DNA of 48,288 nucleotides, taken from positions 1 through 48,288 of the IMG/VR virus record IMGVR_UViG_3300025413_000040; one strand, written 5' to 3'. Source of the DNA: a virus. Below the pieces are notes generated by a model, which saw only the letters and a program-made list of their open reading frames with translations, searched no databases and was not told the origin of the DNA. Positions 32,554 through 46,816 of this stretch are shown here, one piece after another (positions within the stretch are counted from its first letter, which is position 1; every line of letters begins with the position of its first letter). The translations under genes and the position numbers were made by a program.

Positions 32554-32765
32554 TGATGGTATCGCTCGTAATGGCGAGCCAGGAGTGATCTGGATGGACG
32601 TAACTCGTAAGTACGGTCGCCTTGCTGATCCTGAAAATAATAAAGACTGGCGTGCTGCTGGATACAATCCATGCGCAGAGCAATCCTTGGAATCTATGGA
32701 ATGCTGTACTCTTGTAGAGACATACATCGGACGACACGAGACCTTGGAAGATTTCAAGCGCACTC

Positions 32766-32775
32766 TTAAGTTAAG
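32766..32775 (+). repeat. 5-base duplication causing the RNR frameshift
   Basis: TTAAG is repeated directly (TTAAGTTAAG). Removing one copy joins the two RNR frames at a conserved segment. Confidence 0.9.
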
Positions 32776-34458: not shown

Positions 34459-34469
34459 CCAACACAAAC
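34459..34469 (+). repeat. Dispersed motif CCAACACAAAC, copy 1
   Basis: The 11-base motif lies between the stop of the hyperacidic gene and the terminator at 34474, on the transcribed (plus) strand. Confidence 0.8.
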
Positions 34470-34473
34470 ATTA

Positions 34474-34509
34474 AGCCCCCCGCCCATAAGGGCGGAGGGC
34501 TTTTTGTTT
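34474..34509. terminator. Bidirectional terminator between convergent gene blocks
   Basis: AGCCCCCCGCCC and GGGCGGAGGGCT pair (one mismatch) around ATAA and are followed by TTTTTGTTTT. Plus-strand genes end before it and minus-strand genes end just after, so it can serve both. Confidence 0.9.
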
Positions 34510-34512
34510 TAC

Positions 34513-34722
34513 TTAGTCGGCAAGCAGCTTGCCTTGAGACGTTCGCAGCTCCATGAACTGAGTGTCGCTGTCCTCTGTCTCCTCTTCTCCTTCAAGGTCA
34601 TCCATGTAGACAGACCCCTCCAGTAAGTTTTGATAGATTTCAATTGCTTCTTCCGTATCGGAAGCCTCAAACTTTAGAGTACCGGTACGGGTTGTTTCGA
34701 ATAGAACCTCAAACTTTGCCAT
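34513..34722 (-). CDS. Hypothetical acidic protein, 69 residues
   Basis: AAAGGAGATAAGTA precedes the start. The protein has a beta-rich N-terminus (FEVLFETTRTGTLKFEA), a helical middle and an acidic stretch. It is the last gene of the minus-strand block. Unknown function. Confidence 0.68.
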   Translation of the reverse strand: MAKFEVLFETTRTGTLKFEASDTEEAIEIYQNLLEGSVYMDDLEGEEETEDSDTQFMELRTSQGKLLAD

Positions 34723-34846
34723 TACTTATCTCCTTTGTTTGACAATCACATAGTTCGGCATCGAATATGTCTTCGTTGCCCCAATATAGGTATCCAGCCC
34801 CGTAACATAACTGACAGGTACGGGGCTCTACAGTTTCCATATCCAT
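34709..34846 (-). CDS. Zinc-ribbon microprotein, 45 residues
   Basis: The start overlaps the preceding stop (TAATG) and the end overlaps the next gene by 14 bases. It contains CQLCYGAGYLYWG and CDC, four possible zinc ligands in a DnaJ-like CxxCxGxG setting. Supported by coupling and motif. Confidence 0.72.
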   Translation of the reverse strand: MDMETVEPRTCQLCYGAGYLYWGNEDIFDAELCDCQTKEISNGKV

Positions 34847-35139
34847 TATGCGTCTACCTTATAAGTTACCTCTCCTTTTAATAAGATTGGCTTATCATTT
34901 AGATCTTTCTTAAGTACCTCCAACTTAATGGCTTTACGAGGTGTGTTCTCCAGGAGTTTTTCCTTGACCCACTTCTTGGCCGCAGATTGTGTTTTCCAAG
35001 CAGATGTGTAATACCGGTTGCTTGTACCCATTGGATCATTATCATCAATCATATTAGTGACTGTTGCCATCCACGCACCGCCCTTCTCAGTATTTAACTC
35101 TAATGCGGCTTGGAACTTACCATCGATTTTTTTAGACAT
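34846..35139 (-). CDS. Hypothetical protein, 97 residues
   Basis: GGGAGAGGT precedes the start. The protein has two clear beta/alpha elements (FQAALELNTEKGGAWMATV and KTQSAAKKWVKEKLLE). It is preceded by TATACA and an inverted repeat (35167-35191). Unknown function. Confidence 0.7.
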   Translation of the reverse strand: MSKKIDGKFQAALELNTEKGGAWMATVTNMIDDNDPMGTSNRYYTSAWKTQSAAKKWVKEKLLENTPRKAIKLEVLKKDLNDKPILLKGEVTYKVDA

Positions 35140-35166
35140 ACCTCTCCCTACTGTATAATTTGATTA

Positions 35167-35191
35167 GTACGACAGGTTTCTCCCATCGTAC
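35167..35191. promoter_or_regulatory. Operator-like inverted repeat
   Basis: GTACGA at 35167-35172 and TCGTAC at 35186-35191 are perfect complements with a 13-base centre. The repeat lies just upstream of a minus-strand TATACA and the gene starting at 35139. Confidence 0.5.
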
Positions 35192-35195
35192 CCGG

Positions 35196-35217
35196 CCCCC
35201 TAGATGCGCCTAGGGGG
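35196..35217 (-). terminator. Hairpin directly after stop codon
   Basis: CCCCCTAG and CTAGGGGG pair around a 6-base loop immediately downstream of the gene ending at 35218. There is no U tract, so it may be an RNA-stabilising hairpin instead. Confidence 0.6.
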
Positions 35218-35427
35218 TCATTCTTCTGCTATGTTGATAGTTAATAGTTTGGCGCCTTCGCCTGGTCTATCGCATGCATTGACAGAAACCCATTCTTGCT
35301 TGTTCCTATCATAGACCATCAGACACCATTCTTGGTTATTCGGGTCGCGTTGATCATCAATACGCCACTTTGCTAAGTTGACCTCGAACAACAAATGGAG
35401 TTTATAATTCATCTTTTCTGCGCTCAT
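35218..35427 (-). CDS. Hypothetical protein, 69 residues
   Basis: GAGAAGGAGATA precedes the start. The protein reads as a small beta-rich fold (LHLLFEVNLAKWRID, WCLMVYDRNKQEWVSVNACD). Unknown function. Confidence 0.68.
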   Translation of the reverse strand: MSAEKMNYKLHLLFEVNLAKWRIDDQRDPNNQEWCLMVYDRNKQEWVSVNACDRPGEGAKLLTINIAEE

Positions 35428-35480
35428 TATCTCCTTCTCCGTCTACTCCAATGGTTGTGAGTGTTACTGCTAGTTATGCG

Positions 35481-35948
35481 TTATTTTTTGTTTGTGTTGG
35501 GCACCTTCTTTTCTATTACTCGTAATGTCCTATTAGGCGTAGGCCATTTGTACAGTATGTCCTTGCGTACACGAAACCGGTACCAAACCGGATCTTTACG
35601 CTTGAGGTTAGAGCGATGTGATTCATGGAACTCATCATTGCCCCACCACCAGGGTGGATCCCATCCCTGTATGTCATGTTCTGCGTATAGCTCTTGCAGC
35701 TTTGCTTGGACGTTATCTTCGTAACCACGTTGTCTCCACTCCATGCACATAGCATTCGTGTACATGTATAGATATCCCTCGTGACCACGCCACATCACAG
35801 CTGCAGGGTGATTTACCCATCCCTTGGTTAGACCTAAGTTAGCCCTCAGAATTTGCAACGCTTCGACACGTTGCTTACCAAGTCTCTTATTGTCTAAGGA
35901 TTGTGCTGTACGTTTCATATCAGGCCAAGGTAGAAATGTATTAACCAT
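35481..35948 (-). CDS. Pyrimidine-dimer-glycosylase-like (MSMEG_6728-type) protein
   Basis: The 155-residue protein has MVNTFLPWPDMKRTAQSLDNKRLGKQRVEA (in parts), then GWVNHPAAVMWRGHEGYL and CMEWRQRGYED. This fits an actinobacterial family often annotated with the DenV-like pyrimidine dimer glycosylase superfamily. It could start repair of UV-damaged DNA. I recall the family by its N-terminal pattern; the enzymatic role is not certain. GGAGG lies 4 bases before the ATG. The last codons contain a copy of the dispersed motif. Confidence 0.65.
   Translation of the reverse strand: MVNTFLPWPDMKRTAQSLDNKRLGKQRVEALQILRANLGLTKGWVNHPAAVMWRGHEGYLYMYTNAMCMEWRQRGYEDNVQAKLQELYAEHDIQGWDPPWWWGNDEFHESHRSNLKRKDPVWYRFRVRKDILYKWPTPNRTLRVIEKKVPNTNKK
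35490..35500 (-). repeat. Dispersed motif, copy 2
   Basis: CCAACACAAAC on the minus strand encodes part of PNTNKK at the very end of the gene ending at 35481. Confidence 0.8.
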
Positions 35949-36039
35949 TGTCCTCCAGTAGAAAGTCTATGAGCTCATCGTCTGTCATTTCCCAGAGTTC
36001 TTTGCCCACACGTGGTTGTAGTCTGATTAAGTCTCCCAT
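35941..36039 (-). CDS. Microprotein, 32 residues
   Basis: The frame opens at a TAATG overlap with the upstream gene and ends 8 bases inside the next. The product (VGKELWEMTDDELIDFLLEDNG) is acidic and helical. Coupling on both sides supports it; length argues for caution. Confidence 0.5.
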   Translation of the reverse strand: MGDLIRLQPRVGKELWEMTDDELIDFLLEDNG

Positions 36040-36230
36040 TACATAACCGCAGACAATGTCAACGAGTTATCTTGGGCCCACTCTTCAGGCTCAGATATTG
36101 CTTCGATAGTTAGATTTGCACCCCCATCCGGTATCTCATCAGAGACGTGCAACAAGAACATCTGTGCACTCTCGTAGTCGTTGAACGGACCTATAAGTGT
36201 CTCTGTGACACTGTCAAATATGACATGCAT
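36039..36230 (-). CDS. Hypothetical protein, 63 residues
   Basis: AAAGGAGGATAAGTA precedes the start. The protein starts HVIFDSVTETLIGPFNDYESAQMF, a beta-beta-alpha pattern similar to small phage regulators of unknown role. Confidence 0.68.
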   Translation of the reverse strand: MHVIFDSVTETLIGPFNDYESAQMFLLHVSDEIPDGGANLTIEAISEPEEWAQDNSLTLSAVM

Positions 36231-36565
36231 TACTTATCCTCCTTTATATTATTAGAGTTTTCCCATTCAAATATGATGGTAAAACATTCGTCTTGATTGT
36301 AACTATCTCTGCTATACGTTCTTATATTAGAGTTTGTAGGTATACCGTGTTGATTCTGCAGTTCTTGCAGTTTTTCAATGGTAACCTTTTCATTTTTACC
36401 CAACTCAACCTGTATTGAGTACGTGGTTTCATAGAGATTAAATTCAGGGAATGGTTTTTGTATTTCCTGTTTAACTCGTGTGATTAGAGATTGTGGGTTT
36501 TTTTCCCTACCATCTCTCAATGCGTTACCAACAGCACGCATAATTAATTTGTCAATAACGTTCAT
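36230..36565 (-). CDS. Hypothetical protein, 111 residues
   Basis: CGGAGGTCATA precedes the start, which overlaps the VWA gene stop. The protein has a helical N-terminus and beta-rich C-terminus (ECFTIIFEWEN). It follows the MoxR and VWA genes in the same transcript, so it may belong to that system. No family recognised. Confidence 0.68.
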   Translation of the reverse strand: MNVIDKLIMRAVGNALRDGREKNPQSLITRVKQEIQKPFPEFNLYETTYSIQVELGKNEKVTIEKLQELQNQHGIPTNSNIRTYSRDSYNQDECFTIIFEWENSNNIKEDK

Positions 36566-38466
36566 TATGACCTCCGTTTTTTGATTGCACCCATAACTAC
36601 CTTTTTGGCAAATGGAATCAAATCACTGGCTGTATTAACACGGCCAAAGACTTCAGCACCATGCCGCATAGACTCCTCGCTTTCACCTCGGTTTTGATAG
36701 AAATCATAGTCTCTCTCCTGCATGATTAGTACCATTGCAGTCAAGATTCCACGAGCACTGATACGCTTGATAAGATCATCATTCTTGGTTTTATCAAAGA
36801 CACCATCGGTGATAATGAATAGCATCTTGTTCTTCTTACGAGAAGACATAAGAACCTGTTCGGCTGTGGTTAGGGCGCCACTAGGATCAGTGCCTCCACT
36901 ACCATAGATAAACTTGAACCGAGTCTTGTGTGCTTTCTCGCTCCGTTTATATGCTACCTCATTCTTATCATCGAATGCAAATACGGTCACAGGAGCATCA
37001 ATAGCCTCCAATGAACGCTTGATAGTCCAGCAAGCAATAGACGCTTCCCGATCGTTGTAGCCTGACATTGAGCCAGATCGATCGACAAGAATCACCGCCT
37101 CTACATCTGCACCATCAGTGCCTTCTTCCCAACGGTCAAATGCCTGATCAATTTCACACCCATTGATAACGCGTTGAACATTGACCCTACCGCTAGGTGT
37201 TTCTTTGACCCAAGTTGGTTCGCATTCATCACGAAGGCGTTCCAACTCACGTGCAAATCTACGATAGTTAGAGATAGATTGGGCAGGCACATCAGTTAGG
37301 TCAAACTTACCCATCTTAGTGTTGCCATCATATTCTCCATCACCACCTACGATTACTCGTTGCTTGGCTTTGATATCGTTCTGCACATCCTTACGATCTA
37401 ACACATCTGCTACAGCTTTATTGAGCTCAGCATGTAGATCTTCAGGTATACCGCCCTTGCTTTCAACATGGCCTGAGCCCGGTTTCATTGAAGGTGGTTG
37501 CTTTTGGTGTTCTTCAGCCATCATTTCACGAACAGCAATAGCTTCAGCTGCGGAATGTGGTTGGATAGGTTTTGACTTTTTATCAGACCCATCGTCATCA
37601 GCATCATTATTGTTTGTGTTGGGCGTACCACTTTGGCCTTTAGGTTTAGGTGTGTACTTGCCTTCCGCTTTGCCCATACCTTCTGCACGCTTAGCATCTT
37701 TTTCCTGTGCCTTACCAGGTTCAGGGCGTCCTTTAGATACGGGATCTCTTTGACCACAGCTATTGGGTCCACCGGACCATGGACTATCCAACTCCGGACT
37801 AATAACATCCAGAATCTCAGTCTTGAATCGTCTAATCAGTGCCAGACCTTTTAGGTAATCCTTGGGGAATGCCAGAAGTCTGTACTGATCTACGATGTCA
37901 ACAACCACAGGAATTAGTTCGGGGAATGCAAATAGATCGCGGAACCCTTCTCTAATCTCAAGTGGTAGATACCTACGACCACGAACCAGTACATAGTTAG
38001 CCATCGCTTCTTCAGGACTACCAGCAAGCCATCGTGAAACGGTTGCTGTTAGATATGGGGCAACAGATGGATACCTAGCAACGAGTAAAGTCTCGATGCG
38101 TTGATCCTCCAAACAGTTAGCCGCATTCATAAGGTCCTCAGCAAGTACAGTCTTAATGAAGTCAGTACCTTTACGCGGTGTGTAGAAGTGATGGGCTAGC
38201 TCGTGATAGTTCAAGCCAGATACCTGAGTCAATGTCTCCAGATCCATCTCATTAATCTCTTGTTGATTAATATAGATAGCTGAACCATCAGACCAAGCGG
38301 GTGCTGGGCCGTCCGGCATGACATTTACGATTACGGGATCGCCTGTAAGAACGCGGTCAGCCTGCTCGTACACACGACATAGTGCGCCTAATTGCAGGAT
38401 GCGTTCTTGGTCCGCTTCGGACTTTAACGGCGATCGCCATTGATCTTCTTCATAGTCTATTAGCAT
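36565..38466 (-). CDS. HExxH metallopeptidase-like and VWA-domain protein (MoxR partner)
   Basis: The 633-residue protein has HELAH at residues 88-92 in an N-terminal domain resembling the putative metallopeptidase part of DUF2201-type proteins. A low-complexity linker (about residues 240-345) follows. The C-terminal von Willebrand A domain has the full MIDAS: VDRSGSMS (about residue 460), a Thr in GSGGTDPSG and FIITDG. Such proteins pair with MoxR AAA+ ATPases in metal insertion, protein maturation or remodelling. The MoxR gene is just upstream. The linker coding region contains a copy of the dispersed motif. Confidence 0.88.
   Translation of the reverse strand: MLIDYEEDQWRSPLKSEADQERILQLGALCRVYEQADRVLTGDPVIVNVMPDGPAPAWSDGSAIYINQQEINEMDLETLTQVSGLNYHELAHHFYTPRKGTDFIKTVLAEDLMNAANCLEDQRIETLLVARYPSVAPYLTATVSRWLAGSPEEAMANYVLVRGRRYLPLEIREGFRDLFAFPELIPVVVDIVDQYRLLAFPKDYLKGLALIRRFKTEILDVISPELDSPWSGGPNSCGQRDPVSKGRPEPGKAQEKDAKRAEGMGKAEGKYTPKPKGQSGTPNTNNNDADDDGSDKKSKPIQPHSAAEAIAVREMMAEEHQKQPPSMKPGSGHVESKGGIPEDLHAELNKAVADVLDRKDVQNDIKAKQRVIVGGDGEYDGNTKMGKFDLTDVPAQSISNYRRFARELERLRDECEPTWVKETPSGRVNVQRVINGCEIDQAFDRWEEGTDGADVEAVILVDRSGSMSGYNDREASIACWTIKRSLEAIDAPVTVFAFDDKNEVAYKRSEKAHKTRFKFIYGSGGTDPSGALTTAEQVLMSSRKKNKMLFIITDGVFDKTKNDDLIKRISARGILTAMVLIMQERDYDFYQNRGESEESMRHGAEVFGRVNTASDLIPFAKKVVMGAIKKRRS
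37612..37622 (-). repeat. Dispersed motif, copy 3
   Basis: CCAACACAAAC on the minus strand lies in the linker-coding part of the VWA gene (codons for PNTN). Confidence 0.8.
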
Positions 38467-38474
38467 TTATCTCC

Positions 38475-39881
38475 CTAGATATTGGATGGGATACGCTTTG
38501 CCCATTCCTTTAGTTGATCGTCAATGCTGGCCTCTACAGTCTCTTCGATCTCTTCAACTTCTAGACCAAAGTCGGCTTTAAGGTTGTGTTCATGGGTTTG
38601 GATAACCATGCGCACAGATGCTTGCTCATCAATACTGAAGTGAGCAATGAAGTTTTCAGTCGCAAACTCATAACCAAGCGCATCAAGGAAGTCATTAAAC
38701 TCCATAAGCATATTGGTTGAGATTGGGGTTTCATACTGACCCTTAGCAGCCTCTGTACGAAGTTGCTTAGCCATCAATAGGAGCGCCTTAGACTTGACTA
38801 GCTTAGCCTCCACGGCATCGTCATAATCCCAAGGAATCTGGATATCAAAACGATTTCGGAACGCAAAGTTCAATGGCGTGGTGCCAATGTAGTCTGGATT
38901 CATAGTAGCGAAGATAGTAAGGTCTGGATGAGCCTCAATAGTCTCGCCGTGGTGATCGAGCAAGATAATGCAACGACGACCATCGGTCAATGAGTACAGG
39001 TTGGTATAGATCTTAGGATTGATGAAGTTAACCTCGTCAAGCAAGAGCACACCACCATTGCGTACCACATCGGTTACTGGACCATCGATCCAAGCAAAAC
39101 CACCGTGTCCATCGGATACGAACTTACCGGTCATTTGACTTGGCTCCATAGAAGCATTACCTGAAATAGTTGCCATACGAAGACCGCGTTCAGCAGCCCA
39201 CGCCTCAACAGATGTAGTCTTACCAGGACCGGTTGGGCCATAAATAAGCACGTTGATATTATTGGCACGAGCGTGATCAAAGACTGTAAAGTCTTCTTGA
39301 CCCCAGATCTTACGGTGAACATACCGCTCAGCTAGTTTCTTCGGTGGGATAGATGCTAGGTTAACCGCTAAGGTTTTAGCACCAATGTGTTGTGCTGGGG
39401 CGTCGTCGATTGTTTGTGTTGGACTAGACTGTACCGGTACTACTAGTGGCACAGTTGATCCAGTCTGACGACGGTTGTCGATTACTGTTGCATCCAATGC
39501 ATCATCTCCAATCAGGATTTGGTTATAGATCTCACAGATCTTATCCGCAAGCGGTGTCGTATCTGTGCTTACATCAGCCTTGGTATGTGAGTTACATGCT
39601 TTAGTACCAAGGACGGGTGAATAACCCTTCTCATCAATAGCACGCTCATCAGCTGCTGTCACATAGACACCAACCGGATTACGCGTTAGAGATTCGTTAG
39701 GTTTGATTGAATCAATTACTTCCTGCAGTTCTGTTTCCTCCCATTTATTGTGAGGACCCTTGGAACCATCAGTAGTACGTGACCATACTCGTACCTGATT
39801 ATCGTGTGGGACCATAAGAACTTGGCGTCGGTGTGCACCTAGCGTTGGTTCATATGACTCGGTGAATACTGCTATATCCAT
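38475..39881 (-). CDS. MoxR/CobS-like AAA+ ATPase
   Basis: The 468-residue protein has a unique N-terminal 170 residues and then an AAA+ domain: Walker A GPTGPGKTT (about residue 215), Walker B GVLLLDEVNF (about residue 278), sensor I TIFATMNPDY and the arginine-containing FAFRNRFD. Members such as MoxR, NirQ/CbbQ and CobS power VWA partners. It has AAGAAAGGAAGAC upstream and is followed 8 bases later by the VWA gene. The N-terminal part may recruit the substrate. A copy of the dispersed motif lies in the linker before the AAA+ domain. Confidence 0.9.
   Translation of the reverse strand: MDIAVFTESYEPTLGAHRRQVLMVPHDNQVRVWSRTTDGSKGPHNKWEETELQEVIDSIKPNESLTRNPVGVYVTAADERAIDEKGYSPVLGTKACNSHTKADVSTDTTPLADKICEIYNQILIGDDALDATVIDNRRQTGSTVPLVVPVQSSPTQTIDDAPAQHIGAKTLAVNLASIPPKKLAERYVHRKIWGQEDFTVFDHARANNINVLIYGPTGPGKTTSVEAWAAERGLRMATISGNASMEPSQMTGKFVSDGHGGFAWIDGPVTDVVRNGGVLLLDEVNFINPKIYTNLYSLTDGRRCIILLDHHGETIEAHPDLTIFATMNPDYIGTTPLNFAFRNRFDIQIPWDYDDAVEAKLVKSKALLLMAKQLRTEAAKGQYETPISTNMLMEFNDFLDALGYEFATENFIAHFSIDEQASVRMVIQTHEHNLKADFGLEVEEIEETVEASIDDQLKEWAKRIPSNI
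39412..39422 (-). repeat. Dispersed motif, copy 4
   Basis: CCAACACAAAC on the minus strand lies in the MoxR linker in a different codon phase (PTQT) from copies 2 and 3, showing that the DNA or RNA sequence is conserved, not the peptide. Confidence 0.8.
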
Positions 39882-39892
39882 GTCTTCCTTTC

Positions 39893-40126
39893 TTACCAGT
39901 TTTGATCATTGATAGATGAACTACCCATCAACGCTGCTATTTCAAACTGAACGATACGGGCGTTGGACCACTCAGTTATTAATTCATAGAGAATGCCATG
40001 TGATTCAGCAACCTCAATTACTTCCCTCATACGATCTGACGCATAGTATGCAAACTCATTAAGTTCATCTGGCGACATATCGTTCAAGGTATTATCTTCG
40101 TACTCATCTCCACATTCGTGGCACAT
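39893..40126 (-). CDS. Hypothetical protein with CHEC motif
   Basis: ATG at 40126 follows GAAAGGAAAGAATC; an in-frame extension to 40222 lacks a ribosome site. The 77-residue protein starts MCHECGDEYED and is helical after that. It is the first gene of the MoxR-VWA transcript. A possible -35/-10 pair (TTGGGA, 17 bases, ATTATA) precedes it. Unknown function. Confidence 0.62.
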   Translation of the reverse strand: MCHECGDEYEDNTLNDMSPDELNEFAYYASDRMREVIEVAESHGILYELITEWSNARIVQFEIAALMGSSSINDQNW

Positions 40127-40338
40127 GATTCTTTCCTTTCTATAATTAATATGGTTGGCTTGCTCCCAATGCTTCACAGGGACCTTATGGTCTAGCTCAT
40201 CGTTGCTCAACTGCCGCCCCATTGCTGTTACACTCAGCCGTGGACTAGTATTATTGCGCGGACTCTTGCATCACTCCAGTATGTTAGGCGGTAAGCTTAG
40301 CCAACCACATTATTTGGCACGTAATTACTATGCCAAAC
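40127..40338 (-). other. Spacer of 212 bases before the MoxR-VWA transcript
   Basis: No convincing gene was found. The last 60 bases before the gene at 40126 (minus sense) contain the weak promoter TTGGGA...ATTATA. TTTGGCATAGTAATTACGTGCCAAA forms an imperfect inverted repeat further up (TTTGGCA and TGCCAAA). Confidence 0.45.
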
Positions 40339-40827
40339 CTATACGGTTGCTAGATTGTAGGATCGCTCTGATTCTTCAAGCGTAGAACTGAGCATGCTTT
40401 TGATAGCTGATGTTGGGATCGGTGGATCCATTGTAATGGCTCTGACAACTGAAGCAATAGTCGCATCAGCGGACTCAGGATTTAACTCAAGCAACATACG
40501 CTTAGATAAATCAACGTAACCCCAAGCATACGCAATTGGTGCTGTGGCACAAATTAACGCATCCTTAGCATTGTTATTACCCCATTGACGCAGACTATAA
40601 GTTGTGTATTCAAGGAACTTTTCTTGTGCCCCTGTGTCATTTATATAAGTTGTTGCATACGCCATCAAATAACTTCTAAACGATTTAATTTTTAGAAGGT
40701 CTGTTCCATTGTTAGGAAAGAAGCCCATACTACAAATATAAATAAACTGTTCTGGGGTTGAAACTACTGGTCCAAAGTTCACCGGAGTTTCCTGTGAACT
40801 ATCTGATTTAACCGACTGGTTGAACAT
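40339..40827 (-). CDS. Hypothetical helical protein, 162 residues
   Basis: ATG at 40827 is preferred over a TTG nine bases earlier. The protein is helical and rich in Ala/Ser, with ATTYINDTGAQEKFLEYTTY and AWGYVDLSKRMLLEL. It overlaps the zinc-finger gene upstream by 20 bases. Unknown function. Confidence 0.68.
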   Translation of the reverse strand: MFNQSVKSDSSQETPVNFGPVVSTPEQFIYICSMGFFPNNGTDLLKIKSFRSYLMAYATTYINDTGAQEKFLEYTTYSLRQWGNNNAKDALICATAPIAYAWGYVDLSKRMLLELNPESADATIASVVRAITMDPPIPTSAIKSMLSSTLEESERSYNLATV

Positions 40828-41560
40828 AATTAGCAATCATCCTTTCTAATAGAGTTGCTGGTTCTTTTATTACATTGCCATCACGTAGACGGAGTGGCGA
40901 ACCATCCCACATCAACGGTATTGGTTTGTTGCCATAGTCACGCTTGCCAGTGCCTGAACAGCCGTAACAAGTTTGACCTTTTGGTACAGTATGGCCTTGT
41001 TTTTCACCGTGTTCACAAGGTACATAGTGATAACGAGCCCAAGGATTTACTACGGATGCATCGGTATGGTCTGGACAAGAAAACGTAAGGTTACCCTCTT
41101 CATTTCTTGGTTCATTAAACCCACCAGACCAACAGGTAGTTGGGCTGCACCATGAATCCACTTTTCCAGACTGCCTACACATACGACAGCCTTGAATCTT
41201 GGATGGGCTTACATCATAGTTTTTATCTACAATGTAATGCTTATAGTTGCGTTGGTACAAAGATGTAATGCCTGAGTACCGAACAATAGTCAACCGAACA
41301 GATTGACTTCTTAATGGGGTCCAGCCATACCAACCACCTTGGCTTGGAGTACTGTCAGCCTGAATGGTTGTAGTGCCATCTTTGTGGTAGGTTACAAAGG
41401 GTCTAATTGTCCCTGAGTATTTCCAACCAATAGTAAGATCACTATCCGGATCCCAAGCACGTTCTTTCCATATGCGAAGACCCCGATCATACATAGGGCG
41501 TTCGTGTTTCTTTTTACCGTGTGATAGGTAGTCAGAAGCACCTTGCCAAGTCCAACCCAT
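40808..41560 (-). CDS. Multi-zinc-finger protein with DnaJ-like CxxCxGxG
   Basis: The 250-residue protein has GCRMCRQSGKVDSWCSPTTC (about residues 124-143), later SCPD and PCEH, and CYGCSGTGKR (about residue 200). The CxxCxGxG pairs recall DnaJ zinc fingers, without a J domain. The N-terminus is Trp-rich. It may be a zinc-dependent chaperone-like or nucleic-acid-binding protein; no exact family is known to me. Confidence 0.68.
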   Translation of the reverse strand: MGWTWQGASDYLSHGKKKHERPMYDRGLRIWKERAWDPDSDLTIGWKYSGTIRPFVTYHKDGTTTIQADSTPSQGGWYGWTPLRSQSVRLTIVRYSGITSLYQRNYKHYIVDKNYDVSPSKIQGCRMCRQSGKVDSWCSPTTCWSGGFNEPRNEEGNLTFSCPDHTDASVVNPWARYHYVPCEHGEKQGHTVPKGQTCYGCSGTGKRDYGNKPIPLMWDGSPLRLRDGNVIKEPATLLERMIANYVQPVG

Positions 41561-41868
41561 TAATCAACCTCCTCCATAAATAGACTATAACGAGATCTAT
41601 TCTGCAAGTCAAACAGCAACTCGCGTGTCTGTTCGATCTTATTTTCTGGCTCTTCCTCCTCATAAAAGGACAAGCTTATAGGATATGAGTAAGCATCTTT
41701 TGCTGGGGATTTTGTTAGTAGGTTCAAAGCAATGCCAAGACCATCGATTATTCCAGAACTATAAGAGCGCATAACTTGGCTGTCATTGAACTGGGTATCT
41801 TGATGCTCTTCGAACATCATTTGATTGATCTGTTGTACTACACGCTTGGTTCTAAAGAACGGTCGCAT
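41560..41868 (-). CDS. Hypothetical protein, 102 residues
   Basis: AAGGAGGCAAC is an ideal ribosome site. The product has a basic N-terminus (FFRTKRVVQQ) and an acidic middle (FYEEEEPENK). It begins a transcript after the terminator at 41888. Unknown function. Confidence 0.68.
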   Translation of the reverse strand: MRPFFRTKRVVQQINQMMFEEHQDTQFNDSQVMRSYSSGIIDGLGIALNLLTKSPAKDAYSYPISLSFYEEEEPENKIEQTRELLFDLQNRSRYSLFMEEVD

Positions 41869-41887
41869 GTTGCCTCCTTATGTGAAA

Positions 41888-41910
41888 GCCCCCGCTAGTG
41901 TGACGGGGGC
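41888..41910 (-). terminator. Terminator after the coiled-coil gene
   Basis: GCCCCCG and CGGGGGC pair around a 9-base loop, followed in minus sense by TTTCA. Copy 5 of the dispersed motif lies just before it. Confidence 0.75.
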
Positions 41911-41914
41911 GATT

Positions 41915-41925
41915 GTTTATGTTGG
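41915..41925 (-). repeat. Dispersed motif, copy 5 (one mismatch)
   Basis: CCAACATAAAC on the minus strand lies directly after the stop of the gene ending at 41927 and before the terminator. It is followed by AATCG, as after copy 4. Confidence 0.7.
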
Positions 41926-41926
41926 G

Positions 41927-42334
41927 CTAGATACAGTTGAAGAAGTCATCATCCAACATGCTAGCGTTGAATGTCTCTCCAGCCATAATAGATACAGAAC
42001 GAATCTGTCGCTCAATACGTTGAATCAACGCCTTGGACGGTTTGCACAGTTCACTCTGATTAGGTTCTTTGAGATCAACTCTGACCTTAAAGTCAACATT
42101 GACTCCGTTGTAATAACCTCGGAACACACTGTCTTTTACATCAATGGATTTGAGGTATGTGATTGATGCTGCAACAACTGCTTTGTTGAATGCAACAAGA
42201 TCCTTGTCGTACTGAGCCTTTCGTGTCTCGTACTCCTTGAGATTTTTATCATACTCAGCCTTGTTAGTCTTAAGACTCGCATTGAGTTGCTTAAGAGCCT
42301 CAGCCTTGTTGATAAGGTTTGTTACTTTAGCCAT
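41927..42334 (-). CDS. Coiled-coil hypothetical protein, 135 residues
   Basis: GAGGGCCAGCA precedes the start. Residues 10-60 form a Lys/Glu/Ala-rich coiled coil (EYDKNLKEYETRKAQYDKDL) followed by a beta-rich part (VFRGYYNGVNVDFKVRVD). Unknown function. Confidence 0.7.
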   Translation of the reverse strand: MAKVTNLINKAEALKQLNASLKTNKAEYDKNLKEYETRKAQYDKDLVAFNKAVVAASITYLKSIDVKDSVFRGYYNGVNVDFKVRVDLKEPNQSELCKPSKALIQRIERQIRSVSIMAGETFNASMLDDDFFNCI

Positions 42335-42654
42335 TGCTGGCCCTCCCTTGTTAATGGTGGTGTTACAGGGATTCCTGCAACATATTCACTTTCTTGGCTA
42401 TCAATAACCATGAGAGTGTCGTTGATATAGGCATTACCAACGGGTGTTTCACCAATCACTGCATAAAAGAGTGCCGTCTTGAGTTTAGATACATCTGTAT
42501 CTGACAGTTTTAGTAGGTTCTCTTCATGCAATTGACTGACCATACCGATAACAAGACCGGCGCACTCTAGACGAGTGGCATCTTCGGTCGTATTATCGGA
42601 ATACTTTTTTTCTTTAAGGTAATCCAATGTATAAACTTTTAATGGTTCGCTCAT
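42322..42654 (-). CDS. Hypothetical protein, 110 residues
   Basis: It overlaps the upstream gene (stop-start ATGA-type) and the coiled-coil gene by 13 bases. The sequence is helical with a hydrophobic centre (LECAGLVIGMVSQ). Unknown function. Confidence 0.66.
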   Translation of the reverse strand: MSEPLKVYTLDYLKEKKYSDNTTEDATRLECAGLVIGMVSQLHEENLLKLSDTDVSKLKTALFYAVIGETPVGNAYINDTLMVIDSQESEYVAGIPVTPPLTREGQQWLK

Positions 42655-42926
42655 ACAAGTGACTTACCAATAATGGAAACGGCTTGAGGGTTGTATACCT
42701 TGCCTGTTTTCCAATGAGGAATTGACTTGTGGTCTGCACGACCACCAGCAGCCTTCCAAGCCTCGCGCTTGGCATGGCTTTCAGCACAGCGACCATTCAC
42801 GTGAGTGAAGTTTGTTTTCTCCATTTGCGCAGGTCCTGGATTCTTTTTCCATTTCTTGCCATTCTTACGGTCACTAGAACTTCTAGTAACCACTGGGGCG
42901 GACTTTCCGCCTTTACCTGATGCCAT
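42651..42926 (-). CDS. Basic hypothetical protein, 91 residues
   Basis: GAAAGGGGTCAGCA precedes the start and a promoter lies at 42946-42974. The protein is Lys/Arg/Gly-rich at the N-terminus (GKGGKSAPVV, RKNGKKWKKNPG) with HVNGRCAESHAKREAW later. Possibly a nucleic-acid-binding peptide. Confidence 0.68.
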   Translation of the reverse strand: MASGKGGKSAPVVTRSSSDRKNGKKWKKNPGPAQMEKTNFTHVNGRCAESHAKREAWKAAGGRADHKSIPHWKTGKVYNPQAVSIIGKSLV

Positions 42927-42945
42927 TGCTGACCCCTTTCGGATA

Positions 42946-42979
42946 GGTATAAAAAATGAGCAGTTTAATGTCGTGCTCA
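42946..42979 (-). promoter_or_regulatory. Promoter with overlapping operator, copy A
   Basis: In minus sense, ACGACA (42974-42969), a 17-base spacer and TATACC (42951-42946). The inverted repeat TGAGCA...TGCTCA (42979-42957) brackets the -35 box. A closely similar unit lies at 43238-43270. Confidence 0.7.
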
Positions 42980-42988
42980 GGACATAGA

Positions 42989-43222
42989 TTAATTTCTGGC
43001 TAACATAGCCTCAACATTTGCACCTAGAGAATCAAAGTATGCCAGTGAGGCTACATTGTGTTCTCCAGACATAGGTGCTAGTACTAGGCCATTACAAGCC
43101 AAAGTATCAAGCAATGAATTGACATCCAACTCGTCAGTCAACCCATTTGCTTCTAGGTCGTCTACAAGTGTGTTTGCCATCTCTTGTTGGGCTTTGATGC
43201 TTGCCTTTAGTTCTTCTGTCAT
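42989..43222 (-). CDS. Hypothetical acidic protein, 77 residues
   Basis: AAAAAGGAGAAACAA is a strong ribosome site, and promoter copy B is 16 bases further up. The product is helical and acidic (MANTLVDDLEANGLTDELDV). Unknown function. Confidence 0.7.
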   Translation of the reverse strand: MTEELKASIKAQQEMANTLVDDLEANGLTDELDVNSLLDTLACNGLVLAPMSGEHNVASLAYFDSLGANVEAMLARN

Positions 43223-43237
43223 TTGTTTCTCCTTTTT

Positions 43238-43270
43238 TGTATAGATGAGCAGTTTTAATTGTCATGCTTA
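43238..43270 (-). promoter_or_regulatory. Promoter with overlapping operator, copy B
   Basis: In minus sense, ATGACA (43265-43260), a 16-base spacer and TATACA (43243-43238). TAAGCA...TGCTCA frame the -35 box with one mismatch. About 26 of 31 bases match copy A. Confidence 0.7.
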
Positions 43271-43343
43271 GGACATTTGGTGTAACGGAGAGCTACTTGA
43301 TTGTCCTAGAAAGGATCGAAGAGCCGTCGCTTACCAATCTTAG

Positions 43344-43380
43344 TGGGGTATGTTTTACCTCAGGTCTTACCCCAAAGACC
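43344..43380 (-). promoter_or_regulatory. Mutually exclusive hairpins (attenuator-like)
   Basis: GGTCTT/AAGACC (around TGGGGT) and TGGGGTA/TACCCCA share bases 43368-43374, so only one can form at a time. They lie between the gene ending at 43387 and promoter copy B. A U tract is missing. Confidence 0.4.
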
Positions 43381-43386
43381 AACCAC

Positions 43387-43632
43387 TCATTCTTGCTTAT
43401 CTAATGAACCGTTTTCATAACGATTGAGTAGAGTCTGGCTGAGTGTTCTGCGCCACTTACCACTCTCACGAGTAGATTCATAGCAGCCCTCCCAAGTTTC
43501 GTGGTAATGCTCTTTTCCTTTTGGCCTTCCAGCCGAATTGAATAGATTTATTTCCAGCATTGCTTGGTGAGATTGAATGCGCCTACCGCATGAGCCGCAG
43601 TAGTGCGTTTCTGTAATGGCATTGTTTGCCAT
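43387..43632 (-). CDS. Zinc-finger hypothetical protein, 81 residues
   Basis: ATG at 43632 follows GAGGGGGTAC; the upstream in-frame extension to 43875 is structured non-coding sequence. The protein has HYCGSCGRRIQSH and later WEGCYES, giving a CxxC plus Cys/His. It is basic. Unknown function. Confidence 0.68.
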   Translation of the reverse strand: MANNAITETHYCGSCGRRIQSHQAMLEINLFNSAGRPKGKEHYHETWEGCYESTRESGKWRRTLSQTLLNRYENGSLDKQE

Positions 43633-43984
43633 TTTTGTACCCCCTCTGTTGTTGGTACTTCCTCCTTTCAGAGGAAATCTAATACAGCAAGGCGCTTTTT
43701 GCAAGCGCCTTGGCTGCCCATTAATGAAGCATTGCTTAAAGGCGATTGGATGACAATATGATCCACGACTAAATCGTGGGAATCGTAGGGGGTCATGAAA
43801 CGGGTCAGATACATCTATTAGCTTTGTCCGTCCAGACGTAGCGTTCGAAGCTTTAGCAGAGTCAATATTCCACACACCTCAATCCGTCCCGCAATGCTTT
43901 CTCTTGGTTGTCTATACAACCAGCATCCACCCCACACAGGGTGGAATGGATACAAGCGGTATAGGGGCGCGATGTTTGTGTTGG
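43633..43984 (-). ncRNA. Structured 352-base spacer, candidate leader or small RNA
   Basis: No gene is credible here. In minus sense it holds a series of hairpins: CCACCC/GGGGTGG, GGTTGT/ACAACC, CCACGA/TCGTGG, AAGGCGCTT/AAGCGCCTT, TTCCTC/GGAGGAA and GTACC/GGTAC. The fifth contains GGAGGAA, a ribosome-site sequence, in one arm. TTGCAA, a 17-base spacer and TAGATT overlap the AAGGCGCTT hairpin and may be a promoter. The start of the region carries copy 6 of the dispersed motif. Confidence 0.45.
43974..43984 (-). repeat. Dispersed motif, copy 6
   Basis: CCAACACAAAC on the minus strand lies immediately after the stop codon of the gene ending at 43985. Confidence 0.8.
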
Positions 43985-44263
43985 CTAATCGTCCTCACAA
44001 TCGTGGACGTTTTTAACATACTTGTCATTAACACCAAAATCCACAATCACGTGGTAAGCAATATCTATATAGGCAGATACATTGCTAATCAAATCCTCCG
44101 GATGATGTAACTCTTCCTCATTACCCAAACTCCAATTCTTTTGGAGGTACTCACGCAAGCCGGGAAGTAACAATTTAATGAACTCATCAATTGTCATCCA
44201 ACCATCGGCACGTAATGCCTCATCTGTGAGTAATTCAATAGTTATTTTCTTTTTCTTAGCCAT
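43985..44263 (-). CDS. Hypothetical acidic protein with basic N-terminus
   Basis: ATG at 44263 overlaps the previous stop (TAATG), so the 92-residue version starting MAKKKKITIELL is preferred over a GTG at 44275. The rest is helical and acidic, ending NVHDCEDD. Unknown function. Confidence 0.68.
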   Translation of the reverse strand: MAKKKKITIELLTDEALRADGWMTIDEFIKLLLPGLREYLQKNWSLGNEEELHHPEDLISNVSAYIDIAYHVIVDFGVNDKYVKNVHDCEDD

Positions 44264-44394
44264 TATTTGACCCACTCTTCTAACAACTTGGCTTGGATTT
44301 TAAGAATTGCAATATCCATCTGTAAGCGGAGAATCTCAACGCCTATCTTGTCTATGAAACGCTCCATCTCATCTAACTGCTCATCAGTTATCAT
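44263..44394 (-). CDS. Helical microprotein, 43 residues
   Basis: ATG at 44394 follows AAAAAGGAGATAAATA, one of the best ribosome sites in the window. The product is a single amphipathic, probably coiled-coil helix (EQLDEMERFIDKIGVEILRL). It overlaps both neighbours. Unknown function. Confidence 0.7.
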   Translation of the reverse strand: MITDEQLDEMERFIDKIGVEILRLQMDIAILKIQAKLLEEWVK

Positions 44395-44530
44395 TATTTA
44401 TCTCCTTTTTCCATTGCTTTCTAGTTTTGCGTGAGTATTTCTTCTTATTTGGTACCGGAGTAGCGGCGTTACTGCTACGAATACTAAGGGCTTTTTTTAC
44501 ACGCTCTTTATTGGGAAATTTAATAAACAC
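44384..44530 (-). CDS. Basic microprotein, 48 residues (GTG start)
   Basis: GTG at 44530 follows GGAGGCAAC. About one third of the residues are Lys or Arg (NKKKYSRKTRKQWKKE). It overlaps the next gene by 11 bases. Likely binds nucleic acid; unknown function. Confidence 0.65.
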   Translation of the reverse strand: MFIKFPNKERVKKALSIRSSNAATPVPNKKKYSRKTRKQWKKEINNDN

Positions 44531-44555
44531 GTTGCCTCCACTCTAATAATAATAG

Positions 44556-44587
44556 GTGGGTGGGGATCCCCTCAAATCCCCACCCAC
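44556..44587 (-). terminator. Strong Rho-independent terminator
   Basis: GTGGGTGGGGAT and ATCCCCACCCAC form a perfect 12-base stem around CCCCTCAA; in minus sense CTATTATTATT follows. It ends the transcript of the genes at 44618-45355. Confidence 0.85.
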
Positions 44588-44617
44588 TAGCCCGTATGTG
44601 GGCTTGCTCACATAAGA

Positions 44618-44824
44618 TTAACGACCGGAACTCTTACCGCTTGTCTTGAGGTCAGTAGAGTCTTTGGATACATAGGTAAAGCCTTGCTTTGGCATAAGAA
44701 CTAACTGATAGTTATTCCCACGCTCTGTAAGGGGCTCAACGGCACAAGCCGGCTTCATACAGTATGTATAGCCGAGCTCAGCACGACGCTCGGAGAACTC
44801 ATCACCGCAATACTGGCACTTCAT
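44618..44824 (-). CDS. Zinc-ribbon protein, 68 residues
   Basis: AGGAGGCAAGCA precedes the start. CQYCGDEFSERRAELGYTYC and CAVE give a CxxC...C-x4-C site, similar to treble-clef zinc fingers. The C-terminus is polar. Unknown function. Confidence 0.72.
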   Translation of the reverse strand: MKCQYCGDEFSERRAELGYTYCMKPACAVEPLTERGNNYQLVLMPKQGFTYVSKDSTDLKTSGKSSGR

Positions 44825-44969
44825 TGCTTGCCTCCTGATTTAATAGAAAATCGGCGGGGAACTGAATAATCTCAATAGCATAACTAAGTAAGAGCATAGT
44901 TACGATAGAACCATCAGGCTTACGTGTTTGAGTAAGGGTAGATTTCTTAACAATAGAGTTAGTCTTCAT
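44802..44969 (-). CDS. Hypothetical protein, 55 residues
   Basis: ATG at 44969 overlaps the end of the TM microprotein gene. The product has a basic N-terminus and a hydrophobic beta segment (VTMLLLSYAIEIIQFP). Bases 44853-44862 inside it are one copy of the GGCGGGGAA(A)C repeat. Unknown function. Confidence 0.62.
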   Translation of the reverse strand: MKTNSIVKKSTLTQTRKPDGSIVTMLLLSYAIEIIQFPADFLLNQEASNEVPVLR

Positions 44970-45072
44970 AGTGATGCCAATCCCAATCTTCTTGGTCAAT
45001 ACGATATTGAGCATTAATAAGGGTCATTACCAGCCAACCGGCTAGAAAACCACCAATAACCCAAAAGAACAT
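44959..45072 (-). CDS. Single-TM microprotein, 37 residues
   Basis: ATG at 45072 follows AAAGGTAAGACT. The protein has one membrane helix (FFWVIGGFLAGWLVMTLI) and an acidic, aromatic tail (EDWDWHHYED). It overlaps the next gene by 11 bases. It may be a phage membrane regulator such as a superinfection-exclusion peptide; that is only a suggestion. Confidence 0.62.
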   Translation of the reverse strand: MFFWVIGGFLAGWLVMTLINAQYRIDQEDWDWHHYED

Positions 45073-45089
45073 AGTCTTACCTTTCTGGT

Positions 45090-45130
45090 CGAAATTTTGC
45101 GGGGAAACCTAAATACTCTCAATGATAGAG
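45090..45130. repeat. GGCGGGGAAAC-family repeat, copy b
   Basis: CGAAATTTTGCGGGGAAACC is followed by a small inverted repeat (CTCTC...GAGAG). It lies in a 175-base spacer (45073-45247) where no gene is seen. Confidence 0.65.
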
Positions 45131-45225
45131 AGTGCAGGGTGTAGGAGGAATAGTCATATAGGATAAACAACCAAAACCTATAAGGAATGATCTCTCCTAG
45201 ACCCAGCACCACCTACCTGAAAATG

Positions 45226-45270
45226 GCAAAAAACGGCGGGGAAACTCTTATTCCTCAGGAATACAAGAGA
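45226..45270. repeat. GGCGGGGAAAC-family repeat, copy c
   Basis: GCAAAAAACGGCGGGGAAAC is followed by the inverted repeat TTCCTCAGGAA. It overlaps the end of the 35-residue zinc-ribbon gene. Confidence 0.65.
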
Positions 45271-45355
45271 GACAATAGGAGAGAGGAGATTGGGGAAATC
45301 TCTTATATTGGGCAATATGCTCATTACAGATAGAGCAGAGAACATCTTTATCCAT
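45248..45355 (-). CDS. Zinc-ribbon microprotein, 35 residues
   Basis: ATG at 45355 follows GGAGAGGGTAACT. It encodes CSIC (residues 7-10) and CLSC (28-31), a complete CxxC-x17-CxxC ribbon in 35 residues. It is among the smallest zinc-ribbon proteins conceivable. Coupling with the gene at 45358 supports it. Confidence 0.68.
   Translation of the reverse strand: MDKDVLCSICNEHIAQYKRFPQSPLSYCLSCIPEE
45291..45320. repeat. GGCGGGGAAAC-family repeat, copy d (degenerate)
   Basis: TGGGGAAATCTCTT is followed by ATATTG GG CAATAT. It lies within the coding sequence of the 35-residue zinc-ribbon gene. Confidence 0.5.
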
Positions 45356-45357
45356 AG

Positions 45358-45570
45358 TTACCCTCTCCTATCTAGATAGATAGAGAGATAGCCAAAATCT
45401 AGGAATGTAAGACCTAGCGTTCTCCAGTTATTAAAGTCAAAGCGTGGCTTATTGGTAACTGCCATAGCGATACGCACCTTGCCAAGAGTAATGTCCTTCA
45501 CCTTGATTACATCACCAAGATCACTAGCCAAATACTTGCGTAGTTGCGTTTGTTCATTGTTTATAGTCAT
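45358..45570 (-). CDS. Hypothetical protein, 70 residues
   Basis: AAAAGGAGGCAAT is an ideal ribosome site. The protein is alpha/beta (VIKVKDITLGKVRIAMAVTN). Its leader carries two copies of a 16-base direct repeat (45591-45644). Unknown function. Confidence 0.72.
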   Translation of the reverse strand: MTINNEQTQLRKYLASDLGDVIKVKDITLGKVRIAMAVTNKPRFDFNNWRTLGLTFLDFGYLSIYLDRRG

Positions 45571-45590
45571 ATTGCCTCCTTTTTAGATTT

Positions 45591-45644
45591 GATAAGATAG
45601 CCGACCAAGCCCTAGATAAAAGCCACCTGATAAGATAGCCGACC
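45591..45644 (-). repeat. 16-base direct repeat in a gene leader
   Basis: GATAAGATAGCCGACC occurs at 45591-45606 and 45629-45644, 38 bases apart, both just upstream of the gene starting at 45570. A shorter GATAAGAATTGCC follows at about 45674. Confidence 0.85.
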
Positions 45645-45790
45645 TAGTCGTATAGCCTGGACTTACTATTAATGATAAGAATTGCCAAAATGGCAGTAGC
45701 CTAGAGAGCGGGCAGGCTGTAAAGCCCACCCGCCTCTAATAGCAGGACACCGAAGATTGAGTGTCCGACCCGTATCTGGGGAGAAAACAT

Positions 45791-45855
45791 AAAAAAGCCC
45801 CCTATTCCCGCGTTACTCTTACCATAAAGGCAATTCACGCGGGTTATAGGGGACT
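45791..45855 (-). terminator. Long terminator hairpin
   Basis: AGTCCCCTATAACCCGCGT pairs with ACGCGGGAATAGGGGGCT in minus sense (two mismatches and a bulge), followed by TTTTTT. It ends the transcript of the gene at 45956. Confidence 0.85.
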
Positions 45856-45955
45856 TTCTTAACTCCCTATCTACGCTCATAGATAGAACTATGAACATAG
45901 ATAGAGAGGCGGGGGTAAGAGGGGAAACCCCCCGCACTCTCCTAGTGCTTCCTAA

Positions 45956-46510
45956 CTAAGCACTAATGAGCGACTCAACCTGATTAGTGCTCTTGACCGT
46001 AACCGTACGGTCTAAGAACGCCGATAACTCCGTCAATGCCTTACGAGCATTGAGTAGAGCCTCTGGGTCAGCATAGCCCGCCAATGAAGCCTTAAGGCGG
46101 GATACATCTTTGACCAGAGTTTCAGCGTCCTTACGAGCAGTTTTACCCAAAGCAAGATTAAGTTCCTGCTCCTCAGTATCCTCTGCCTCTAACTGGTCAG
46201 CAAAGGAGCGCAACTGAGAAACAATACCGGACTTATCTGCCTTGAGATTAAGGTCTTCACCCTTGCGATTAAGCGTATCAGCCCAAGAATAGGCATCATC
46301 TACGCTAAATTGCTTGTGGGCAACAAGATAACCGCCCAAATTCATAACCTTCTGACGCTTGTTATAGTTCACAAAGTCAGAGAAATCGAGGGGGGAAATT
46401 GAGGCATCTGCACGATAATGAGTAGATGCTTCCTCGATAATGAACTTGAGACCCGCCTCACCAGACGCTTGAGCATTGGTAAGGTTGATAAGGGTATCCT
46501 TGATAGACAT
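45956..46510 (-). CDS. Hypothetical helical protein, 184 residues
   Basis: ATG at 46510 follows AGAGGAAACGACT; an upstream extension to 46603 has no ribosome site. The product is almost entirely helical and charged (QLEAEDTEEQELNLALGKTA, LLNARKALTELSAFL). It is the first gene of the minus-strand block and faces the divergent control region. It may be abundant, given the strong signals, but has no recognised family. Confidence 0.72.
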   Translation of the reverse strand: MSIKDTLINLTNAQASGEAGLKFIIEEASTHYRADASISPLDFSDFVNYNKRQKVMNLGGYLVAHKQFSVDDAYSWADTLNRKGEDLNLKADKSGIVSQLRSFADQLEAEDTEEQELNLALGKTARKDAETLVKDVSRLKASLAGYADPEALLNARKALTELSAFLDRTVTVKSTNQVESLISA

Positions 46511-46816
46511 AGTCGTTTCCTCTTTCTGTAATGCGGAAGACCCGCGTGTGTGAGTGAGGAGTTGAACCCCACCCACACGACAGATTGAGTCGGACACTCG
46601 CAATCATCTTGAGCGGCTCTGAACTTCCACGCTCACCCGTACTCTATTTGTACCATTTGTATGCTTATGTCCGTTTTGTACCCCCCCGACCCTTAAATCC
46701 CTTTTGTCCCATTTGTCCGCCAGGGCTTACGAATGGTTGGGGGTTTGGGGAGCTATACAGTGGCCTTGGGTAAAATGTCCGATTTGTAACGTTTGTCATG
46801 CTTTGTGAGCTTGGGG

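Follow-up and report, generated by a model that had tools for sequence, protein, structure and literature searches.

The closest described counterparts of the element treated here are the stoperators of cluster A mycobacteriophages (L5, Bxb1, D29), which are short asymmetric sites that occur in many copies and in one orientation in actinobacterial phages. According to excerpts of published work, stoperators follow the direction of transcription and lose repression upon reversal (PMC9283540), and their consensus drifts in step between related phages (PMC6550527, again an excerpt). Here, we describe an array of similar appearance in a 48,288-nucleotide stretch of viral DNA (IMG/VR record IMGVR_UViG_3300025413_000040), called the window throughout. 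The array is built from copies of a motif, M1, whose core in related phages is the 12-mer YCAACAYAAACA, followed by a C-rich, T-poor tract of only about 12 nt, and it runs along a leftward operon that encodes an AAA+ ATPase and a VWA-domain protein. The array is real and strongly conserved, and it looks regulatory; its geometry is established, and the mechanism that we infer from it resembles that of the stoperators. No published description was found in the open-licence literature on stoperators, on the motif string or on freshwater phages, the papers listed for the motif string being on subjects other than phages, and as far as these searches reach the array is undescribed.

An earlier note, made from the letters of the window alone, had listed six positions of the 11-mer CCAACACAAAC, and all six coordinates and strands are right: five copies are exact (34459 on the plus strand; 35490, 37612, 39412 and 43974 on the minus strand) and one has a single mismatch (41915, minus strand). 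All of them lie within 34.4-44.0 kb and none occurs in the window outside this block. Five copies are located in the leftward operon and point in its sense, and the sixth, on the plus strand, sits where the rightward gene run ends. The contexts assigned to the sites by the earlier note (a stop codon and a hairpin at 34459 and 41915, a stop codon at 43974, a gene end at 35490 and linkers in differing codon phases at 37612 and 39412) hold as well. The sites and the hairpins beside them are as follows.

34459..34470, plus strand: M1 copy CCAACACAAACA, inverted relative to the block and in the sense of the rightward operon converging on it; after a stop codon and directly before a terminator-like hairpin
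34473..34502, no strand assigned: terminator-like hairpin at the convergent junction; on the minus strand, part of the M1 copy's reverse complement makes up its T-rich tail
35489..35500, minus strand: M1 copy in the last codons of a pyrimidine-dimer-glycosylase-like gene
37611..37622, minus strand: M1 copy where the VWA (CobT-like) gene encodes a linker, codon phase 1
39411..39422, minus strand: M1 copy where the AAA+ ATPase (CobS/MoxR-like) gene encodes a linker, codon phase 0, reading PTQT
41888..41910, minus strand: hairpin within the operon, on the 3' side of the 41915 copy
41914..41925, minus strand: M1 copy CCAACATAAACA, following a stop codon; position 7 is T instead of C, its only mismatch
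43973..43984, minus strand: M1 copy directly after a stop codon, the first copy of the array in the window genome

The motif-hairpin arrangement at 41888..41910 recurs in the related loci L007, L008, L010 and L032 (and, by eye, in L006), and a stable hairpin lies about 20 nt downstream of the 43974 copy.

In 100 dinucleotide shuffles of the window, CCAACACAAAC appeared 0.81 times on average and at most three times, and no 11-mer of any kind exceeded four copies in 60 simulated sequences. Moreover, CCAACACAAACA is the most over-represented 12-mer found in the window, with five copies against 0.01 expected under a Markov model. The shuffles and Markov counts, together with the relatives described below, rule out a chance repeat; the reversed pattern had no match in 17 relative records. 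Conservation of a peptide is excluded too, given the three codon phases in which copies occur and the fixed codons at the ATPase linker, so that the earlier proposal of a conserved nucleic acid stands. The linker copy occupies the same place in most relatives: PTQT is encoded in 27 of 37 distinct genes and by CCA ACA CAA ACA in 27 of these 27, where their own codon usage would predict 0.038; the genes are related and not independent.

The conservation of the array was followed in 49 loci, five of which (L092, from phage GMA6, and the remote matches L093-L096) were excluded from the array counts; none of these five carries an array. The other 44 loci are IMG/VR relatives around the ATPase gene (33, plus 11 more from a second search). 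All 44 possess the array in the sense of the ATPase gene, with 265 sense copies and no antisense copy between the first and the last one; for this count relatives were not merged, and the search patterns, as for the junction described below, include variants picked after viewing the loci. Thus, motif, position and strand are kept in relatives, and the tie to transcript sense noticed in the window is general, even though ATPase identity to that of the window falls to 54% among the array-bearing lineages. The gaps between sense copies (n=221) have a median of 1307 bp and an interquartile range of 1053-1842, and none is below 500.

Nine genomes were mapped with a simple caller of open reading frames, namely the window, G002, G004, G008, G010, G013, G012, G005 and G007. 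In this order, their blocks hold 5, 11, 11, 8, 12, 9, 3, 7 and 2 sense copies and no antisense copy, and the remaining 36-89 kb hold 0, 6, 6, 4, 0, 6, 0, 9 and 0 copies on both strands (in G013 including the junction copy). Two genomes have too few copies for a spacing test (G007 with two, G012 with three). In all seven others the spacing is more regular than that of random positions (p 0.036 or less) and also more regular than that of positions drawn at random from gene ends and from slots within long genes (p <0.0002 to 0.0098); these p-values treat the genomes as separate although they are related. The coefficient of variation (CV) of the spacing is 0.12-0.34 in the seven genomes, as compared with 0.60-0.80 for the random gene-end and interior slots. 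The gap between the ATPase and VWA copies measures about 1.8 kb in most relatives, and in L007 and L032 it is divided by one more copy, located in the 3' portion of the ATPase gene. In copy-poor genomes, the copies are still exact and no run of decayed sense copies lies between them.

The second geometric feature is a single inverted copy at the convergent end of the operon. Of the 37 loci considered to extend to the junction, 36 possess it, and the 37th, L083, has a copy 3 bp past the called gene. A hairpin below -10 kcal/mol, whatever its own sequence, follows 31 of the 34 distinct end copies at a distance of 0-3 nt; no such hairpin lies 0-3 nt downstream of the end copies of L083, L085 and L086. 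The end copy lies a median of 1.3 kb (0.4-3.0 kb) from the last sense copy, and it continues the spacing of the array in the opposite direction. Seen from the leftward operon, its complement forms the T-rich tail AATGTTTGTG of the operon's own terminator-like hairpin. Two features of the relatives, namely the regularly spaced copies and the one inverted copy where the operons converge, lay beyond the view of the earlier note, and they make a polar array for the control of elongation a better reading than the labels proposed there, which were antitermination, Rho-related or RNA-processing signals.

The relatives also show which letters are conserved. The wider consensus GCCCAACACAAACAATCG that the earlier note drew from the window fails in them, as neither its leading GC nor AATCG is conserved. 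Where the core itself has changed, internal and end copies mostly change together, as a single shared evolving recogniser would be expected to bring about. For instance, end and internal copies share the variant CCAACATAAACA in L082 and partly in L089, and CCAACGTAAACA and CCAACATAAACA in L027. In L087, three of the five internal copies have become CCGACACAAACA, as in the end copy, and in L088 the set has changed to CCGCAACAAACA and close forms.

The surroundings of the copies were analysed for 216 distinct sense sites, after sites less than 120 nt from a locus end had been dropped and identical contexts merged. Inside called coding sequences there are 141 of them, distributed over the three codon phases as 63/59/19. 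The 45 nt downstream of internal copies fold with -6.3 and -6.5 kcal/mol versus -7.2 and -7.1 kcal/mol in controls, so that there is no excess of hairpins, and only 10 of the 216 have a downstream fold below -15 kcal/mol. The RNA of coding copies is no more accessible than the motif in random contexts (p 0.32). In the 12 nt after M1, coding and non-coding copies alike are enriched in C (0.35-0.39 vs 0.21-0.22) and depleted of T (0.13-0.15 vs 0.24-0.27). Between nt 13 and 30, the fractions of C (0.23-0.24) and G (0.22-0.25) show no wider bias of C over G. No Rfam match at E 1 was obtained for the window from 33.5 to 48.3 kb.

How far does the array compare with stoperators? In D29, 18 of 18 sites with annotated neighbours are oriented one way relative to transcription, as are the M1 copies. 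A further likeness is that in D29 the leftward arm is dense (19 sites) and the rightward arm sparse (5 sites). The concerted change of M1 in L027, L082, L087, L088 and L089, with L030 as an exception, likewise recalls the stoperators. The orientation with transcription, the independence of gene borders, the mostly concerted change and the inverted copy are together best fitted by polar sites at which a factor stops or pauses polymerase. We estimate at about 40% the probability that the M1 array works like stoperators, that is, as a set of sites for a factor acting on elongating RNA polymerase; we do not claim that it belongs to the stoperators.

According to this stoperator-like reading, M1 with its short C-rich tail would be an asymmetric, sequence-specific site for a trans-acting factor, which is probably encoded by the phage. 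The sites would line the leftward ATPase/VWA operon in transcript sense, usually about 1-2 kb apart, and the bound factor would most likely meet RNA polymerase from one side only and stop or pause it as a polar roadblock. Several evenly spaced sites could then shut down elongation throughout the operon, and the inverted site might guard its convergent end by barring from the block any polymerases that arrive from the converging rightward operon. Binding by a protein, action on elongation and arrest rather than read-through are the inferred parts of this scheme.

Several observations set the array apart from stoperators or weigh against this scheme. First, D29 has only 4 of 24 sites wholly inside coding sequences, as opposed to the 141 of 216 for M1, and its spacing is irregular (CV 0.63-1.09). 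Second, operators at the early promoter are reported for L5, whereas in none of the nine mapped genomes, in which promoters are unmapped, is the operon's first called gene preceded by an M1 copy with up to one mismatch; in G013, a one-mismatch copy stands in the first codons of that gene. Third, some phages have few internal copies, down to the two of G007. Fourth, the change of sequence is not always concerted: the end copy of L030 is CCGACACAAACA, and all eight internal copies have kept A3. Fifth, compared with embedded controls, the motif is somewhat easier to reach in the RNA of intergenic copies (p 0.008), and an RNA target would also be in keeping with the C-rich tail and with the hairpin next to the end copy.

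The binder itself was not found. Unlike cluster A phages, the nine genomes have no homologue of the cluster A repressor among their 1090 called proteins, and none of the 14 long relatives has a match to tyrosine integrase at E 0.001. The Tomathan repressor (181 aa) gave no phmmer hit at E 10 against the 1090 proteins and only blastp matches at E 3.1 and 6.5, which leaves room for a non-homologous binder; one of the nine, the window record, is moreover incomplete. Two candidates were considered and set aside. A MerR-like protein (10410-10886) is encoded in all nine genomes and also in Streptomyces phage BRock, which showed no array in the 100,000 bases read, and it is not favoured. For a cysteine-rich protein of the block, nothing supports DNA binding: its AlphaFold model (mean predicted local distance difference test score 87) has no Foldseek match at E 0.001, and VIA-align gave weak rows, the best of which (Z 3.5, root-mean-square deviation 3.6, 44 residues) is to a DnaJ zinc domain.

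Copies outside the block also bear on the stoperator-like reading. The earlier note had called the motif unique to the block, which is true of the window and fails in five of the eight mapped long relatives: G002, G004, G005, G008 and G013 each have a few exact 11-mers beyond the block, and the window, G007, G010 and G012 have none there. These copies often carry T or C at position 12, many are found in tail-region genes, and in some genomes they lie on both strands. Apart from them, the motif is not scattered at random over the genomes. With up to one mismatch, the coding DNA outside the block contains 19 sense sites versus 5.1 in synonymous shuffles and 9 antisense sites versus 1.7, an excess that is located in part at common places in a tail-region protein and often lacks the A at position 12. 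Both counts are further points against the stoperator-like reading. Strong stop signals that are active at all times would be avoided in such DNA, and as M1 shows no depletion there it cannot be one of them; the factor would have to act only early or require the context of the array. Some outside copies precede hairpins, namely a copy in G013 (99404) and TAA-TCAACACAAACA in G004 (87419) and G005 (85839), of which L028 and L037 have relatives; those in G004, G005 and G013 are in transcript sense.

A more novel reading is a new kind of periodic cis element. In most of the phages studied here, it would mark one transcript, or its DNA, about once per 1-2 kb, it would be kept inside long genes by means of linker codons, and it would have an inverted boundary copy at the convergent terminator. 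Its reader would be a phage factor unrelated to the stoperator repressors. We give it less than an even chance of being right.

An RNA-level signal is unlikely, though it deserves consideration. The transcript, whether nascent or finished, would be bound or cut about once per 1-2 kb by a phage RNA-binding protein or endoribonuclease, which would set the life or processing of the mRNA; T4 RegB, for instance, turns over early mRNA. Strict transcript sense, the C-rich, T-poor 12 nt after the site and the accessibility of the intergenic copies would be in line with such a signal, as would the copies just after stop codons, before hairpins or 13 nt before a tRNA-Met gene (L035, L038). However, most copies lie in called coding sequences, where ribosomes would tend to mask an RNA site and where no excess of accessibility is seen. 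Furthermore, internal copies have no excess of hairpins and Rfam gave no match. With rut sites, which are degenerate and show a bias of C over G over some 70-90 nt, M1 shares a C-rich, T-poor stretch on its 3' side; it differs in that this stretch spans only about 12 nt, beyond which C is not clearly above G, and in that an exact 12-mer is conserved. The Rho-related label of the earlier note is therefore not borne out. Nor is M1 an ordinary part of intrinsic terminators, since the internal copies have no stronger fold downstream, although the junction copy does adjoin a hairpin.

Still less probable is a site at which processive antitermination is re-loaded, with a fresh signal every 1-2 kb across weakly translated stretches. 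nut, put and boxA sites are promoter-proximal RNA elements that are usually accompanied by a hairpin, and like M1 they are transcript-sense elements of phage operons. The regular spacing within the operon, the sense orientation and the hairpins that follow some copies inside the operon would accord with re-loading. In contrast to nut-like sites, M1 is present in many dispersed copies, mostly in coding DNA and with no hairpin excess at the internal ones. Its most constant copy lies 0-3 nt before the terminator-like hairpin of the converging operon, where read-through would be harmful. Moreover, no copy precedes the first gene, and long rightward operons lack an array, so that the antitermination label of the earlier note finds no support either.

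Base pairing is a quite improbable explanation. The 3' tail of the operon's terminator (UGUUUGUGUUGG, the reverse complement of M1) would pair with the internal copies, in cis or as a small RNA derived from the 3' end, and thereby provide feedback. OppZ and CarZ are small RNAs of this kind, which derive from 3' untranslated regions and act in autoregulation. The likeness is that the reverse complement of the motif is found in the operon's terminator tail, since the T-rich stretch that ends the hairpin at 34473-34502 is supplied by the junction copy. In addition, 199 of 215 pattern-fitting internal copies are compatible with their own tail (149 the same, 50 by wobble, 16 not), and the variant lineages co-vary in part. 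Small RNAs from 3' untranslated regions that autoregulate their own genes are a precedent, as excerpts of one report describe (PMC7398697). However, pairing is lost in several of the six lineages with a changed end copy, which together have 14 incompatible copies out of 36 (L030 8/8, L088 3/6, L087 2/5, L089 1/5, L027 0/7, L082 0/5). Compatibility elsewhere says little because every transition from a motif made of A and C only is compatible with G-U pairing. The pre-hairpin copies of G004, G005 and G013 stand in other operons and serve no such operon. Strict pairing with the terminator tail is thus disfavoured.

Finally, a polar element of the DNA that is separate from transcription, such as a fork barrier, a primase or recombination site or a nucleoid or partition site whose direction merely follows the one-way block, has little chance of being correct: it would account for the even spacing that ignores gene borders, the inverted junction copy that continues this spacing and the 11-mers on both strands outside the block in some genomes, but no dense array is seen beyond a single transcription unit with its convergent end, and the other pre-hairpin copies are in transcript sense.

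A one-way, regularly spaced short signal that runs through coding genes, with ATPase identity down to 54%, implies a strong and still unexplained constraint. If M1 stops elongation, the principle of the stoperators would extend, with spacing added as a design rule, to phages in which neither a repressor nor a tyrosine integrase was found. Should M1 act on RNA, the mechanism would match none described that we could find. In either case, the search for the factor could draw on the variant lineages, which amount to natural swaps.

The window covers only part of its phage, the long relatives of which measure about 100 kb. It comprises a rightward gene run (102-34303), the leftward operon and the start of another rightward run. 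The operon and the core genes of the block are listed below.

34513..46603, minus strand: leftward array-bearing operon with 21 called open reading frames
36565..38466, minus strand: VWA-domain (CobT-like) protein, block core gene in 9/9 genomes
38475..39881, minus strand: AAA+ ATPase of the CobS/MoxR type, block core gene in 9/9 genomes
40808..41560, minus strand: core block protein with two invariant CxxC pairs, in 9/9 genomes; its cysteine part is weakly like the DnaJ zinc domain

The hosts are probably actinobacterial, judging from the WhiB genes that all 14 long relatives possess and from the genes they have in common with Streptomyces phage BRock. WhiB is called exclusive to actinobacteria in one report (PMC10202952). 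BRock is the nearest isolate by the terminase of G004 (53%) and has many replication and structural genes in common with the array-bearing phages. Inspection of 100,000 of its 112,523 bases turned up neither an array nor the ATPase, the VWA protein or other block genes; there is a single isolated M1 site with one mismatch. No Streptomyces phage is among the 17 records that match the VWA protein. Relatives of the ATPase and of the VWA protein occur in Gordonia and Brevibacterium phages; Gordonia phage GMA6 and Brevibacterium phage Cantare showed no array in 49,001 bases each, in which runs of acidic codons dominate the k-mers and a weaker array could escape. A scan of a genome collection revealed no host or prophage relative of the ATPase.

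Some further observations concern the operon. A second sense-strand repeat, approximately TTTCCCCGCCRATTTT, is present in four copies with up to three mismatches near its 5' end (window 44847-46841, minus strand). Elsewhere there are three copies in G010, two in G012 and one each, with three mismatches, in G002 and G005, and none in the blocks of G004, G008, G013 and G007. This repeat is possibly linked to a promoter or leader. A strong terminator-like hairpin inside the operon (44556-44587, minus strand) has no adjoining M1 copy. In two loci, a tRNA-Met gene (anticodon CAT) within the block is preceded by an M1 copy at a distance of at most 13 nt (L035:8441-8539, L038:1181-1278). An extra WhiB-like gene is located within the array-bearing operon of several relatives (e.g. 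G004 79176-79379, G013 85798-86010).

Other observations concern genes outside the operon. At 31403-33597 of the window, two adjacent open reading frames (466 and 251 aa), the first of which matches ribonucleotide reductase, cluster with a single protein of 676 aa in G004, and the gene looks split or interrupted. An exact 30-base tandem duplication lies at 33730-33789 within a glycosyltransferase-25-like gene. A gene present in eight of the nine genomes (L050:5730-6296 in G004) matches a proteasome subunit in Pfam above the cutoff (E 5.6e-7). Likewise, a SpoVS-family gene (window 18249-18530; Pfam E 7.9e-25) occurs in eight of the nine genomes and also in BRock.

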